Assembly (NCBI RefSeq): GCF_014207135.1
Contig: NZ_JACHCC010000003.1
Span: forward strand, 284,701 to 348,700
Reading direction: 5' to 3'
Origin: Pedobacter cryoconitis
Lineage (GTDB): Bacteria > Bacteroidota > Bacteroidia > Sphingobacteriales > Sphingobacteriaceae
DNA: 64,000 nucleotides
The translations under genes and the position numbers were made by a program. Positions 37,625 through 43,710 of this stretch are shown one piece after another (position 1 is the first letter of the stretch; each line of letters starts with the position of its first letter). Under the pieces are notes generated by a model. That model was not told where the DNA came from. It saw only the letters and a list, made by a program, of their open reading frames with translations, and made no database searches.

Positions 37625-38872
37625 ATGAGCTTTTTATCTCTTCGTCACATGATCAAATATAGTCGTTACACCTTATTGCTGTTGTTATTTGTCTCTGCAG
37701 ATTTTCCGGTTCAGGCACAATTTAAAGGACTTTTAAAAAAAGCAACAGATAAGATCATGAAAATGCAGTCTCCGAAGACCAGTCCGGACAGCAGCAGTAA
37801 CACCATGGAGAACAATGGTCCATCCCCGGCAGAAAATCAAGATGCCCCGGTTAATAAGGCGGTTCAGCCGGCTTTTCCTAAAACTGGTAAAACGGTAAAT
37901 GCGGTAGGGATTACCTATTCGGTTGATTTACTCGCTAACTCGTCGGCCCTTTTACAAAAGCCAGTCATCATCAAAGGACTAAAAATTGCGAAGAGCCAGG
38001 GAATAACAGGCACTGACAGAGAAATTTTAAAACGTGTACTGGAAGATCCTCAGTTATTCGGACAAATCGGAGCGCAGTTAAGTAATGATCCGGCTAATGC
38101 GGCGGGCTTGAATGAGGTATTGGATATTTTACGTCCTGCACAGACTTTCGGGCCGTTGGCGGGCGACTTTCATTATTATATTACCAATAACTATATCCGG
38201 GCAGAATTAGCTGATTCTCCTAACTCTATTGGCAAAAAACTCTTTGATAACCTGGGGGGAGTTATAACCATTGTAGATCTCCGGGCGAAAAAGAGCTATG
38301 CGATTTCAAATTACCTGAATATTGTTCCTGCAGCTGTTGTAGAACAACTTGAAAATTTCCAGTATGCATTTGGTCTTGCTGATTATTATAAAAAAATATT
38401 AAATCAAACAGATATACATCCTTCTCTGATTGGTCCTAAGTTATTTGGTAAATACCAGGCCAGTGGAGTACGTTTAGAACTTCCTGTCAAACCTGGTATC
38501 GGTAAAGACGGTAAGCCAGATGACAGTATGCTTTATCTTCATTGCGTATTTAATGGGAAATGGGAGGATCTGGAAAACAAAAATTACAATCCTAAGTACA
38601 AATTATACCTGGAGATGTATTACTCCCATGAACTGGATAAACTCATTCCTCCAGCCATCACTCAAGGTAAAGGGCTTCTGGGGATAAATGGTTTTTTTGT
38701 GGGATATACCCTAAAAGATGAGAATGGCAGACAAGTGAGCTATGGCATCAAATCTATTGATCCAAGTACAGCTGTAGATGAAGGATTATTAACCCTTCCT
38801 GCCGGATATCCCGAAATGACACACGAAGAACTTGAGACCAGAATATTAAAAAAACTTGGTCTGAAACATTAA
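37625..38872 (+). CDS. Secreted protein of unknown function
   Basis: The 415-residue protein is probably started at Met9 (position 37649, MIKYSRYTLLLLLF), which gives a clean signal peptide ending VQAQ. A Ser/Pro/Asn-rich linker (about 50-95) precedes a globular part. No family is recognised. It has no close partner gene on either side. Confidence 0.65.
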   Translation: MSFLSLRHMIKYSRYTLLLLLFVSADFPVQAQFKGLLKKATDKIMKMQSPKTSPDSSSNTMENNGPSPAENQDAPVNKAVQPAFPKTGKTVNAVGITYSVDLLANSSALLQKPVIIKGLKIAKSQGITGTDREILKRVLEDPQLFGQIGAQLSNDPANAAGLNEVLDILRPAQTFGPLAGDFHYYITNNYIRAELADSPNSIGKKLFDNLGGVITIVDLRAKKSYAISNYLNIVPAAVVEQLENFQYAFGLADYYKKILNQTDIHPSLIGPKLFGKYQASGVRLELPVKPGIGKDGKPDDSMLYLHCVFNGKWEDLENKNYNPKYKLYLEMYYSHELDKLIPPAITQGKGLLGINGFFVGYTLKDENGRQVSYGIKSIDPSTAVDEGLLTLPAGYPEMTHEELETRILKKLGLKH

Positions 38873-39240: not shown

Positions 39241-42200
39241 ATGAATGAATTAACCGGGCCGTCCAAACAAACTTTAAACTTATTAAGTGCTGTTACGGGA
39301 ACTGTTTATGTGCTGTTGAATAAATATCAGGCCTATCTGAAAGATACTGTCAAGCTTGAGCTGAGCTTTGCCGAGACCGGGAAACCAGGGCTACGCTCAT
39401 CGCCACTTGAATTTCAATATCCATTAGAAAATAACTTGTCTTTCAATGTTTTAACTGAGAAGATTGCACATGCTGTTGAGGCTTATCACGACTTGTCCGA
39501 GGAGAACTTTACACTTCACATCAAATGGATAAGTGATGATCAGGCCAACGATTACCATATAGCCATACATATAGAAAACGGTGATGTTACCGGCTCAGAC
39601 TTTAGTTGTAAGGAGACTGCTTTTTATGCAGTTGTCTTCAAACAGGCACCTAATCACTTTATCACTGTCCTGCAGCAGGTAGCCGAAAATCCGGGAATTC
39701 TGCTCTCTGATCTGATCTTCATGGATGATCAGGAACTGGATCGTCTGGCTGGTTATCAGGCAGGCCTGGTAGATAATAGTGTAGGAACTCCTGAATTGTT
39801 ACATTCTCTATTTGAGCATACTGCATATGCTTTTCCTCAAAATAGGGCAGTTTGTACTGCTAACAGGCAGGTAAGCTACCATGAACTGGATCAGGCAGCT
39901 AATAAACTCGCTGCAGAACTCATAGAAAAAGGGGTAAAAGAAGGTGATTTCGTAGGTATTCTATTGAAACGTTCACCTGAGGTTTACCTCGCGATGCTGG
40001 CTATCCTTAAAGCAGGTGCAGCCTATGTTCCTCTGGATACTGGTTATCCGGAAGACAGGGTGAGCTTTATCCTGGAAGATTGCGGGGCAAAATTCTTATT
40101 AAGCGATGAAATCTGCTCCTCGTCTTTTAAGCTGAGCTGCCAGATTATTACTGTAGATGACAATTCTTTTGAGCTGCATCATCATCATTATGAGGCACCA
40201 GATATAGCTATAACAGTTGCGGATGCAGCTTATATGATTTACACTTCGGGCTCTACAGGCCGGCCAAAAGGGGTAATTATCTCCCATGCTGCGATCAGTA
40301 ACCTGGTTAAAGGAGAAGAACGTTTGTTTGAAGTGGGGCCTCATGATAAAGTTGCACAGGTTTTTTCTGTCGCTTTTGATGCTTCTTTAGAAGAAATCTG
40401 GCTTGCTTTCCGTTCGGGCGCCACTTTATTCCCTGTTTCTGAAGCTGTAATGCATTCAGGTGCTGATCTGAGTGATTATATTTTAAAATATCAGCTGACG
40501 GTGCTGTCTACAGTGCCGACTATGTTATCGATGATGCAGTATCCACTGCCTTCTTTACGTTTACTGATATTAGGCGGAGAAAACTGTCCACATGAATTAT
40601 TATTACCATGGCATAGCCATAGCCTGCGTATTGTAAATACTTATGGCCCTACGGAAGCTACTGTAATTGCTACTTATGCTGATTTTGATCCTCTGCATAA
40701 GATCACTATTGGTAAACCTGCAGTTAATTATAATACTTATATACTGGATGAACAGCAATTACCAGTACCTATAGGTGTACCTGGAGAATTATGTATTGGC
40801 GGACCGGGCCTGGCCATTGGTTATTTGCACCAGCCTGAACTAACTGCCGAAAAGTTTATCCAGCCAGTTTTTCCGCTCCCTGAAAATATGCCCCGTTGTT
40901 TATACCGGAGCGGCGATCTTGCCCGTTTCAACGATGACGGTAATATAGAATTTCTGGGACGTATAGATCTTCAGGTAAAACTAAGAGGGTACAGGATCGA
41001 GCTATCTGAGATTGAATCGCAATTATTGCAGATTGACAGTATCAAGAATGCTGTTGTCGCTGTAAAGGAGGATGAGCAAAAGGTGCAACGTCTGGTTGCT
41101 TACCTGATCCTTAAAGGAGAAAAAGATACTTTTAATGAGGAAGTCTGCAAAACGCAGCTTAAATCCAGGCTCGCACCCTATATGGTGCCTGCTGTATTTG
41201 TGCTGATGGATGCTTTTCCTTTGCTTGCCAGTGGTAAAGTGGATAGAAAACTTTTACCTCAGCCTGCAAGACAACAACATAAAACTGAAGGCCGTAAACT
41301 GGTTGGAGCAAGAACGGAGACAGAAGCGATGCTGCTGACCGTATGGAAGAAATACTTTGAGCCGCAGGAAGTATCTGTGACGGATGATTTCTTTGACCTT
41401 GGCGGACATTCGCTGGTTGCTTCAATGATGGTTTCTGAACTGCGTAAAACAGGTGCTGCTGCACAGATATCTGTGCAGGACATTTATACCTGCCGCACCC
41501 TGCAAAAGTTAGCGGCAAAGATCGAAACTATCGCAGATGATCAGGAACATTCTTCACAGGAAAAGACCGAACCGGTAGTAAGACTGAAAGTTTCTGGTTT
41601 TCAGAAGGCACTGACCTCAGGTATACAACTGATCAGTGTGCTGGTTTTCTTTATGATAGGTTCGGCAGGATTAATGGGGCCGTTTATAGTGAGACATTTT
41701 GGATCAGCTACCAATGTATATGACCTGCTTATTTATGGGGTGGTAGGCTTCTCTGGTATATTTTTCTCTATTATCTTACTTTCTATTATAGCTAAGTGGG
41801 TTCTGATCGGTAAGTTCAAAGCAGGCAGGTATCCGCTCTGGGGCTGGTATTTTCTTCGTTTCTGGATTGTGAAAAAGCTGATTGACCTGAGTCCGATTGG
41901 TATTCTGAGCGGAACTCCATTTTTAAAATGGTATTTCAGTCTGATGGGTGCAAAGATCGGGAAGAGAGTGTTTCTTGGATCGGACAGGATCAGGGTATTT
42001 GACCTGCTGAGTATAGGGGATGGCTCCAGTATTTCTAAAGAAGCACACCTTCTGGGTTACAAAATTGAGGATGGGGCGCTGATTATCGGAAGCTTAACTA
42101 TTGGTGAAAACTGTTTTGTGGGTACGCGTTCGGTTATTTCGTGCGGAGCTGTGATGGAGGATGGATCGTCTGTTGGTGAGTTGTCTCAGGTTCAGTCTGA

Positions 42201-43710
42201 TACAGCTATACCTGCCGGGGCCCACTGGAAAGGTACCCCTGCGGTACCTGCCGGAATTCATAAGCCAGCTGAAACCTTTAAATTCTCCGGACAGAATAAG
42301 CCGATGAATTTTGCGCTTTATGTTACGCTGCTTATTGTTACATTAGGTTTTGTATTCCTTTTTCCTTTTGGACTGAGTATTCCGTTTATAGCCATCTATT
42401 ATGAAGTAATTATATCCTTTGGACTGGGCTGGGCTATTGCCTTGTCTATACCAATTTCGGCTATGTACATTATCATTTACTGTTCATCGGTAGCTTTATT
42501 TAAGTGGCTGGTTATTGGTAAACTGGAAGAAGAAGCATTTAGTATATATAGCTTTAAATACATCAGGAAATGGGTAGTTGATTCACTGATGAATATGAGC
42601 CTGACTTATTTCAGGTCTGTTTATGCGACGATCTATCTTTCTTCATGGCTAAGACTGATGGGGACAAGAATCGGTAAAGCCACTGAAATTTCGACAGTGA
42701 ATCAGATTACCACTGATCTGGTTAAAATCGGAGCTGGAAGTTTTCTGGCTGACTCTGTGAGTTTAGGTTCTCCTGAAGTACATCAGGGAACGATGTATCT
42801 GCGTCGTATTACCATCGGGAATAAAACCTTCATTGGTAACAGTGCTGTAATCTCTTCGGGAGATACGATAGGAAGTAACTGCCTGATCGGGGTTTTATCT
42901 ACACCGCCGGCAAATGTTGAACGTAAGTATATTAATGATTCTTCATGGCTGGGGGCTCCGCCGATGTATCTGCCTAAACGCCAGGAAAGCGTAAAGTTTC
43001 CTGATGATTTAACTTTCAGACCAACCAATAAATTATATATGCAACGTGGTATTATTGAGTTATTCAAAATCACGTTACCTTATGCAATTACATCGACTAT
43101 ATTACTGTTGTTTTATTATTTCATAGATAATTTCTATGATCATTCCGACAGACATATCATTCATACACTTTGCATAGCACCATTTTTGCTCCTGGTACTC
43201 ATTAAACTTTCTGCTTTACTGACTATTCTGTTTAAGAAGATATTGATCGGTACTTATAAGCCTTCTAACAAACCTTTATGGAGCATGTTTGTCTGGAAAA
43301 ATGAGCTGGTGAATTCGCTGTGTGAAAATATGGTTTATCCATTACTGGTTAATTCACTGCTGGGAACACCATTTGCACCGATATTCTTCAGGATGATGGG
43401 TTGCGAAATAGGAAAAGATGTATATATGGACACCAGTGAAATTACTGAGTTTGATCTGGTTCATGTGGGAGATCATGTGGCTATCAATCATATGTGCACT
43501 TTACAGACCCACTTGTTTGAAGACCGGGTCATGAAAATGGCTCATCTGCATATTGGTGATTACTGTAATATCGGCGCGATGAGTGTCGTGTTATATGACT
43601 CTACTATTGAAGAGGGAGCGACCTTACAGGCACTATCTTTAGTCATGAAAGGGGAGACTATCCCAAAACATACACAGTGGGCTGGTTCGCCTGCGAAATT
43701 CGTAAAATAA
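39241..43710 (+). CDS. Single-module membrane NRPS of the poly-lysine-synthetase (Pls) type
   Basis: The 1489-residue protein has a short N-terminal region (1-175), then an adenylation domain (about 180-670) with AYMIYTSGSTGRPKG, FDAS (Asp380), NTYGPTE and GKVDRK (Lys666). A carrier domain follows with Ser724 in DLGGHSL. From about 790 to the end is a 700-residue terminal domain of six or more membrane helices alternating with three left-handed beta-helix blocks (IGKRVFLGS, IGNKTFIGN, IGDYCNIGA). This is the architecture of NRPS_term_dom proteins, including epsilon-poly-L-lysine synthetase; there is no normal condensation or thioesterase domain. The specificity code by hand alignment is DAESIGTVIK, near a recalled lysine code, so a basic amino-acid homopolymer is plausible. 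No accessory gene is adjacent. Confidence 0.88.
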   Translation: MNELTGPSKQTLNLLSAVTGTVYVLLNKYQAYLKDTVKLELSFAETGKPGLRSSPLEFQYPLENNLSFNVLTEKIAHAVEAYHDLSEENFTLHIKWISDDQANDYHIAIHIENGDVTGSDFSCKETAFYAVVFKQAPNHFITVLQQVAENPGILLSDLIFMDDQELDRLAGYQAGLVDNSVGTPELLHSLFEHTAYAFPQNRAVCTANRQVSYHELDQAANKLAAELIEKGVKEGDFVGILLKRSPEVYLAMLAILKAGAAYVPLDTGYPEDRVSFILEDCGAKFLLSDEICSSSFKLSCQIITVDDNSFELHHHHYEAPDIAITVADAAYMIYTSGSTGRPKGVIISHAAISNLVKGEERLFEVGPHDKVAQVFSVAFDASLEEIWLAFRSGATLFPVSEAVMHSGADLSDYILKYQLTVLSTVPTMLSMMQYPLPSLRLLILGGENCPHELLLPWHSHSLRIVNTYGPTEATVIATYADFDPLHKITIGKPAVNYNTYILDEQQLPVPIGVPGELCIGGPGLAIGYLHQPELTAEKFIQPVFPLPENMPRCLYRSGDLARFNDDGNIEFLGRIDLQVKLRGYRIELSEIESQLLQIDSIKNAVVAVKEDEQKVQRLVAYLILKGEKDTFNEEVCKTQLKSRLAPYMVPAVFVLMDAFPLLASGKVDRKLLPQPARQQHKTEGRKLVGARTETEAMLLTVWKKYFEPQEVSVTDDFFDLGGHSLVASMMVSELRKTGAAAQISVQDIYTCRTLQKLAAKIETIADDQEHSSQEKTEPVVRLKVSGFQKALTSGIQLISVLVFFMIGSAGLMGPFIVRHFGSATNVYDLLIYGVVGFSGIFFSIILLSIIAKWVLIGKFKAGRYPLWGWYFLRFWIVKKLIDLSPIGILSGTPFLKWYFSLMGAKIGKRVFLGSDRIRVFDLLSIGDGSSISKEAHLLGYKIEDGALIIGSLTIGENCFVGTRSVISCGAVMEDGSSVGELSQVQSDTAIPAGAHWKGTPAVPAGIHKPAETFKFSGQNKPMNFALYVTLLIVTLGFVFLFPFGLSIPFIAIYYEVIISFGLGWAIALSIPISAMYIIIYCSSVALFKWLVIGKLEEEAFSIYSFKYIRKWVVDSLMNMSLTYFRSVYATIYLSSWLRLMGTRIGKATEISTVNQITTDLVKIGAGSFLADSVSLGSPEVHQGTMYLRRITIGNKTFIGNSAVISSGDTIGSNCLIGVLSTPPANVERKYINDSSWLGAPPMYLPKRQESVKFPDDLTFRPTNKLYMQRGIIELFKITLPYAITSTILLLFYYFIDNFYDHSDRHIIHTLCIAPFLLLVLIKLSALLTILFKKILIGTYKPSNKPLWSMFVWKNELVNSLCENMVYPLLVNSLLGTPFAPIFFRMMGCEIGKDVYMDTSEITEFDLVHVGDHVAINHMCTLQTHLFEDRVMKMAHLHIGDYCNIGAMSVVLYDSTIEEGATLQALSLVMKGETIPKHTQWAGSPAKFVK

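Follow-up and report, generated by a model that had tools for sequence, protein, structure and literature searches.

A predicted lysine-activating synthetase of the Pls/PosA family with an N-terminal half-condensation domain in Pedobacter cryoconitis

The window, a stretch of 64,000 nucleotides from Pedobacter cryoconitis, contained an uninterrupted reading frame for a 1489-aa synthetase of the Pls/PosA family (Table 1). Its best named matches were proteins of P. cryoconitis strains and Pedobacter sp. PAMC26386 (84-85% protein identity). Where dS was finite, comparisons with four Pedobacter orthologs gave dN/dS values of about 0.02-0.05 for the adenylation (A), carrier (T) and terminal domains. 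The corresponding values for residues 1-184 were about 0.2-0.3; selection on this N-terminal extension was weaker than on the other parts, yet purifying. The intact frame and the purifying selection indicate that the gene is not a chance reading frame. An A-T layout with a C-terminal membrane/beta-helix domain had been described in an earlier note on this DNA, and it was borne out by matches to AMP-binding, PP-binding and TIGR02353 and by six TM-like regions plus a left-handed beta-helix. The A and T domains directly precede the TIGR02353 domain, and no thioesterase is present.

Table 1. Coordinates of the synthetase gene, its domains and its conserved start within the window
Feature	Position	Strand	Description
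Whole synthetase gene	39241..43710	+	1489 aa, Pls/PosA family
Leader blocks and first 35 codons	39068..39345	+	Unusual synonymous-site conservation, six Pedobacter loci
N-terminal extension (residues 1-184)	39241..39792	+	C-terminal lobe of NRPS condensation domain; profile and structure
Adenylation domain (residues 185-676)	39793..41268	+	Code DAESIGTVIK
Carrier (T) domain (residues 690-765)	41308..41535	+	PP-binding match 707-759
TIGR02353 terminal domain (residues 790-1489)	41608..43707	+	Six TM-like stretches, three hexapeptide beta-helix units
QTHLFEDR (residues 1422-1429), third unit	43504..43527	+	31 family members aligned

Family members scoring above the cutoff were found in 23 of 145 Pedobacter genomes, as long forms of about 1500 aa in eight and as short forms of about 1320 aa in 15. 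Long and short forms never occurred together (0/145), which is little informative since fewer than one such genome was expected by chance. Substrate codes were read for part of these genomes: the six long Pedobacter forms were lysine-type and the four short ones PosA-like. When 395 genomes were drawn evenly from the phylum, 6 had a family member; among 395 drawn likewise from the class, 11 did.

Gene order around the synthetase was common to the Pedobacter loci, and a glycine-betaine ABC transporter operon lay upstream in all six loci examined. No exporter, degrading peptidase or phosphopantetheinyl transferase (PPTase) was found beside the synthetase within the window, and no obvious partner gene was adjacent. 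The synthetase gene was followed by a PPTase gene in one MAG of the Bacteroidia. Genes for a SAM hydrolase-like protein (5/5), a TonB receptor (4/5) and an MFS transporter (4/5) lay downstream of the synthetase in the five other Pedobacter loci (L035-L038 and L051), the SAM hydrolase-like gene following it. None of the three was next to the synthetase in the window, and they were therefore rejected as parts of the system. Upstream of the synthetase, the window encodes a secreted-looking 415-aa protein (37625-38872) that matched no Pfam family and lacks a counterpart at the other Pedobacter loci examined. The gene after the long-form synthetase of three non-Pedobacter Bacteroidota (L052:13092-14033, L054:8772-9701 and L055:12455-13396) encoded a barrel-like protein of ~310 aa that probably carries a signal peptide. 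It had no Pfam or PDB match and is a possible envelope partner; no match to it was found in the genome of the window.

The start of the gene was conserved at the nucleotide level. Across codons 1-35, 12% of synonymous sites differed, against 50% in the rest of the gene, whereas three neighbouring genes gave 29-36% against 46-53% in the same comparison. An Rfam search of the gene and its leader returned no match. This synonymous-site conservation, together with the conserved leader blocks, indicates constraint at the nucleotide level on codons 1-35 and the leader, probably regulatory in kind, and makes them a candidate cis-regulatory element.

The earlier note had overlooked that residues 1-184 form a separate half-condensation domain. 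About 180-225 residues preceded the A domain in all 10 distinct long-form proteins, while no such extension was present in PosA, the Streptomyces-type Pls or the other Bacteroidota members read. When compared with condensation domains of the same genome, the extension profile matched columns 243-451 of 473 (93%, E 3.4e-7). The match persisted in a less redundant subset (78%), against no more than 2.3% in 60 column shuffles and 0.1% for the reversed profile. The Pfam Condensation model scored far below its cutoff on the extension. In an AlphaFold2 model of the extension (pLDDT 74.6, pTM 0.74), the nine best structural matches were all condensation domains, aligned at their C-terminal lobe (Z 7.2-9.6; next match 5.1). 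These matches came from a second look with VIA-align, which supplies the structural evidence, Foldseek alone having returned no significant match for the model. The HHxxxDG motif was searched for in the residues of the extension and was absent, and the N-terminal catalytic lobe is missing, so the extension is not expected to catalyse condensation. Most likely, it serves the A domain as a structural platform. A short Bacteroidota protein (L064) carried the same substrate code without an extension, which indicates that code and extension are separable traits.

In the A domain, AMP-binding matched residues 191-529 and AMP-binding_C residues 590-666. Mapping of alignment columns placed the pocket residues at D380, A381, E384, S423, I443, G445, T467, V475, I476 and K666, giving the ten-letter code (DAESIGTVIK) that the earlier note had obtained by hand. 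The mapping was validated by PosA of Acinetobacter baumannii, for which it gave DMEHNGTVSK, as published (PMC10522769). In the alignment of the solved Pls A-domain structure (7WEW), which covers nine of the positions, the code is DAESIGTVV; DAESIGTVVK was read in three actinobacterial proteins of Pls type that the 7WEW segment had retrieved. The P. cryoconitis code equals this Streptomyces albulus-type epsilon-polylysine synthetase code at nine of ten positions, a closer match than the eight of ten that the earlier note gave for the lysine code of bacitracin synthetase (DAESIGSVCK), and DAESIG[T/S]VIK was read in all 10 distinct long-form proteins. Code position 2 has been reported to set substrate length, with Phe for Dap/Dab, Met for Orn and Ala for Lys, and the PosA variant M218A used lysine nearly 10-fold more (PMC10522769). 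The nine shared positions and the Ala at position 2 strengthened the earlier proposal of lysine as the likely substrate. Of the basic substrates named there (lysine, ornithine or similar), lysine is favoured, and ornithine and Dab appear less likely because their enzymes have Met or Phe at position 2; the Met and the DMEHNG of the PosA type are both absent from the present code.

It is unlikely that the same machinery uses another diamino substrate and polymerizes ornithine, Dab, Dap or beta-lysine. Family members are known for each of these substrates, and PosA adenylates some lysine yet makes no polymer from it (PMC10522769). Against this, the code is one position away from the lysine type but several from the ornithine type (DMEHNG.V.K), from the beta-lysine type (DGESISVVNK) and from the DFECLSAVTK type, the gene of which adjoins a Dab transaminase gene. 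A beta-lysine polymer was dropped on account of its different code.

The T domain carries a predicted phosphopantetheine serine, S724, read within the motif GGHSL. The genome yielded four matches to the PPTase family (PF01648), and two of these are stand-alone frames, 233 and 255 aa long; phosphopantetheinylation is therefore plausible.

The last domain belonged to TIGR02353, "Pls/PosA family" (residues 810-1485 of 1489), with a score of 618 bits where the cutoff is 423. Six TM regions and three tandem acyltransferase-like units were recognized from the alignment and from an AlphaFold2 model (8 sequences, mean pLDDT 71.9, pTM 0.79), in which pairs of membrane helices plus a beta-helix were repeated three times. 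The model matched structures of hexapeptide acyltransferases (best Z 15.6 over 101 residues, rmsd 2.2); these matches fell mainly on the first unit, the later units being of lower confidence and barely probed by that search. In the third unit, His1424 was the only histidine of the terminal domain conserved in at least 96% of 31 aligned family members. Hexapeptide acyltransferases use histidine in catalysis, and this analogy points to His1424 as the most likely catalytic base.

The resemblance to hexapeptide acyltransferases, which serve many acceptors, and the divergence of the long clade from characterized enzymes would also fit activation of lysine followed by transfer of one or a few lysines to another acceptor (a lipid, a glycan or a protein amine) in place of a free homopolymer being built. 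We consider this improbable, as the enzyme retains both the three-unit layout and the motif QTHLFEDR, and as PosA, which shares the terminal domain, yields a 7-12mer in vitro without another acceptor (PMC10522769).

In the phylogenetic analysis, the A domains of the family formed one clade against 21 nonribosomal peptide synthetase (NRPS) A domains of the same genome (100/100). The A domain scored 341-420 bits to family A domains and 233-338 bits to the NRPS A domains of its own genome. In the PDB, LgrA, TycA and GrsA had scored better, which raised the possibility of an A-domain swap from an ordinary NRPS; this was ruled out by the Pls-family grouping and is also disfavoured by the bit scores. 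With this monophyly, the TIGR02353 score well above cutoff and the predicted terminal-domain fold, the assignment to the Pls/PosA homopolymer-synthetase class made in the earlier note held. The long forms were a single clade (100/100) of ten distinct proteins, six from Pedobacter and four from other Bacteroidota (Taibaiella, Flavobacteriales, Prolixibacteraceae and Bacteroidia MAGs). Deep branch order in the A-domain tree, including whether the long clade splits first, was without support either way, and common ancestry with the actinobacterial Pls gave AU p values of 0.44 and 0.54, the deep branches being weakly separated. Elsewhere in the genome, at about 165000-218000 of contig C1 (G000), lay a giant NRPS cluster containing open frames 11224 and 5968 aa long. 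That cluster and the best PDB scores could suggest an ordinary NRPS module fused to an unrelated membrane domain and adding one residue to a larger peptide, which is very improbable given the family grouping of the A domain, the lack of a complete condensation domain and the position of the gene, alone and far from NRPS clusters.

The synthetase is an enzyme of the Pls/PosA kind distinguished by its half-condensation extension, and on its sequence features the best reading of its predicted function is a lysine-activating homopolymer synthetase. It is probably a membrane-bound, single-module enzyme making a lysine homopolymer. The A domain would adenylate L-lysine and transfer it to the phosphopantetheine arm of the carrier domain. 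Loaded lysines would then be joined to the growing chain by the terminal domain, an intramolecular body of three hexapeptide acyltransferase-like units on six membrane helices, with His1424 as the putative catalytic base. The product would be a short isopeptide (epsilon-) polylysine. The N-terminal half-condensation domain is predicted to be catalytically dead and most likely serves as the platform for the A domain. We infer the in vivo substrate, the linkage, chain length and release of the product, the catalytic histidine, the role of the extension and the biological use, which may be as an antimicrobial or a surface polycation.

The long Bacteroidota clade could, tentatively and with a probability well below even, preserve a trace of the origin of polylysine-type synthetases. 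In this view, a C-A-T elongation module would have lost the catalytic lobe of its condensation domain when a membrane hexapeptide acyltransferase took over bond formation, and the remaining lobe would have been kept for a new job, as A-domain platform or in chain-length control or acceptor binding. The half-condensation remnant gives a way into the evolution of this NRPS-like family and its replacement of the condensation domain.

Epsilon-polylysine is a commercial food preservative. Characterized synthetases of the family have been reported only from actinomycetes and Acinetobacter (PMC10522769), and among the open-access papers searched we found none on Bacteroidota polylysine synthetases or on the biochemistry of any Bacteroidota member. 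The presence of a lysine-type clade in this phylum extends the likely range of producers and offers a testable enzyme. With two synthetase types in one genus, the roles of both polymers could be compared across related strains.

Among known systems, Pls of Streptomyces albulus (A domain, PDB 7WEW) has the A-T-terminal plan and nine code positions in common with the Pedobacter enzyme. Identity to the Streptomyces-type Pls is only 37% in the A domain and 27% in the terminal domain, and the Pedobacter enzyme differs in its 184-aa extension and its Bacteroidota host. Owing to this low identity, and because the Pls clade was not placed as the closest kin, the shared lysine code may be either convergent or ancestral. 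In Streptomyces sp. NBC_01454, an M1 peptidase gene adjoins Pls, whereas none adjoins the Pedobacter gene. PosA of A. baumannii shares the domain plan and the fold of the terminal domain (39% identity in the A domain, 34% in the terminal domain), and the six TM regions described for PosA were likewise seen in the Pedobacter synthetase; the two enzymes differ in code, ornithine-type in PosA, and in the extension. NRPS condensation domains resemble the extension in their C-terminal lobe, by profile and by structure, but also have the N-terminal HHxxxDG lobe. The short Pedobacter Pls/PosA proteins (L039, L040, L041 and L043) are of the same family and genus and likewise occur as one copy per genome, but they have the code DMEHNGSV[S/T]K, lack the extension and fall in a different clade.
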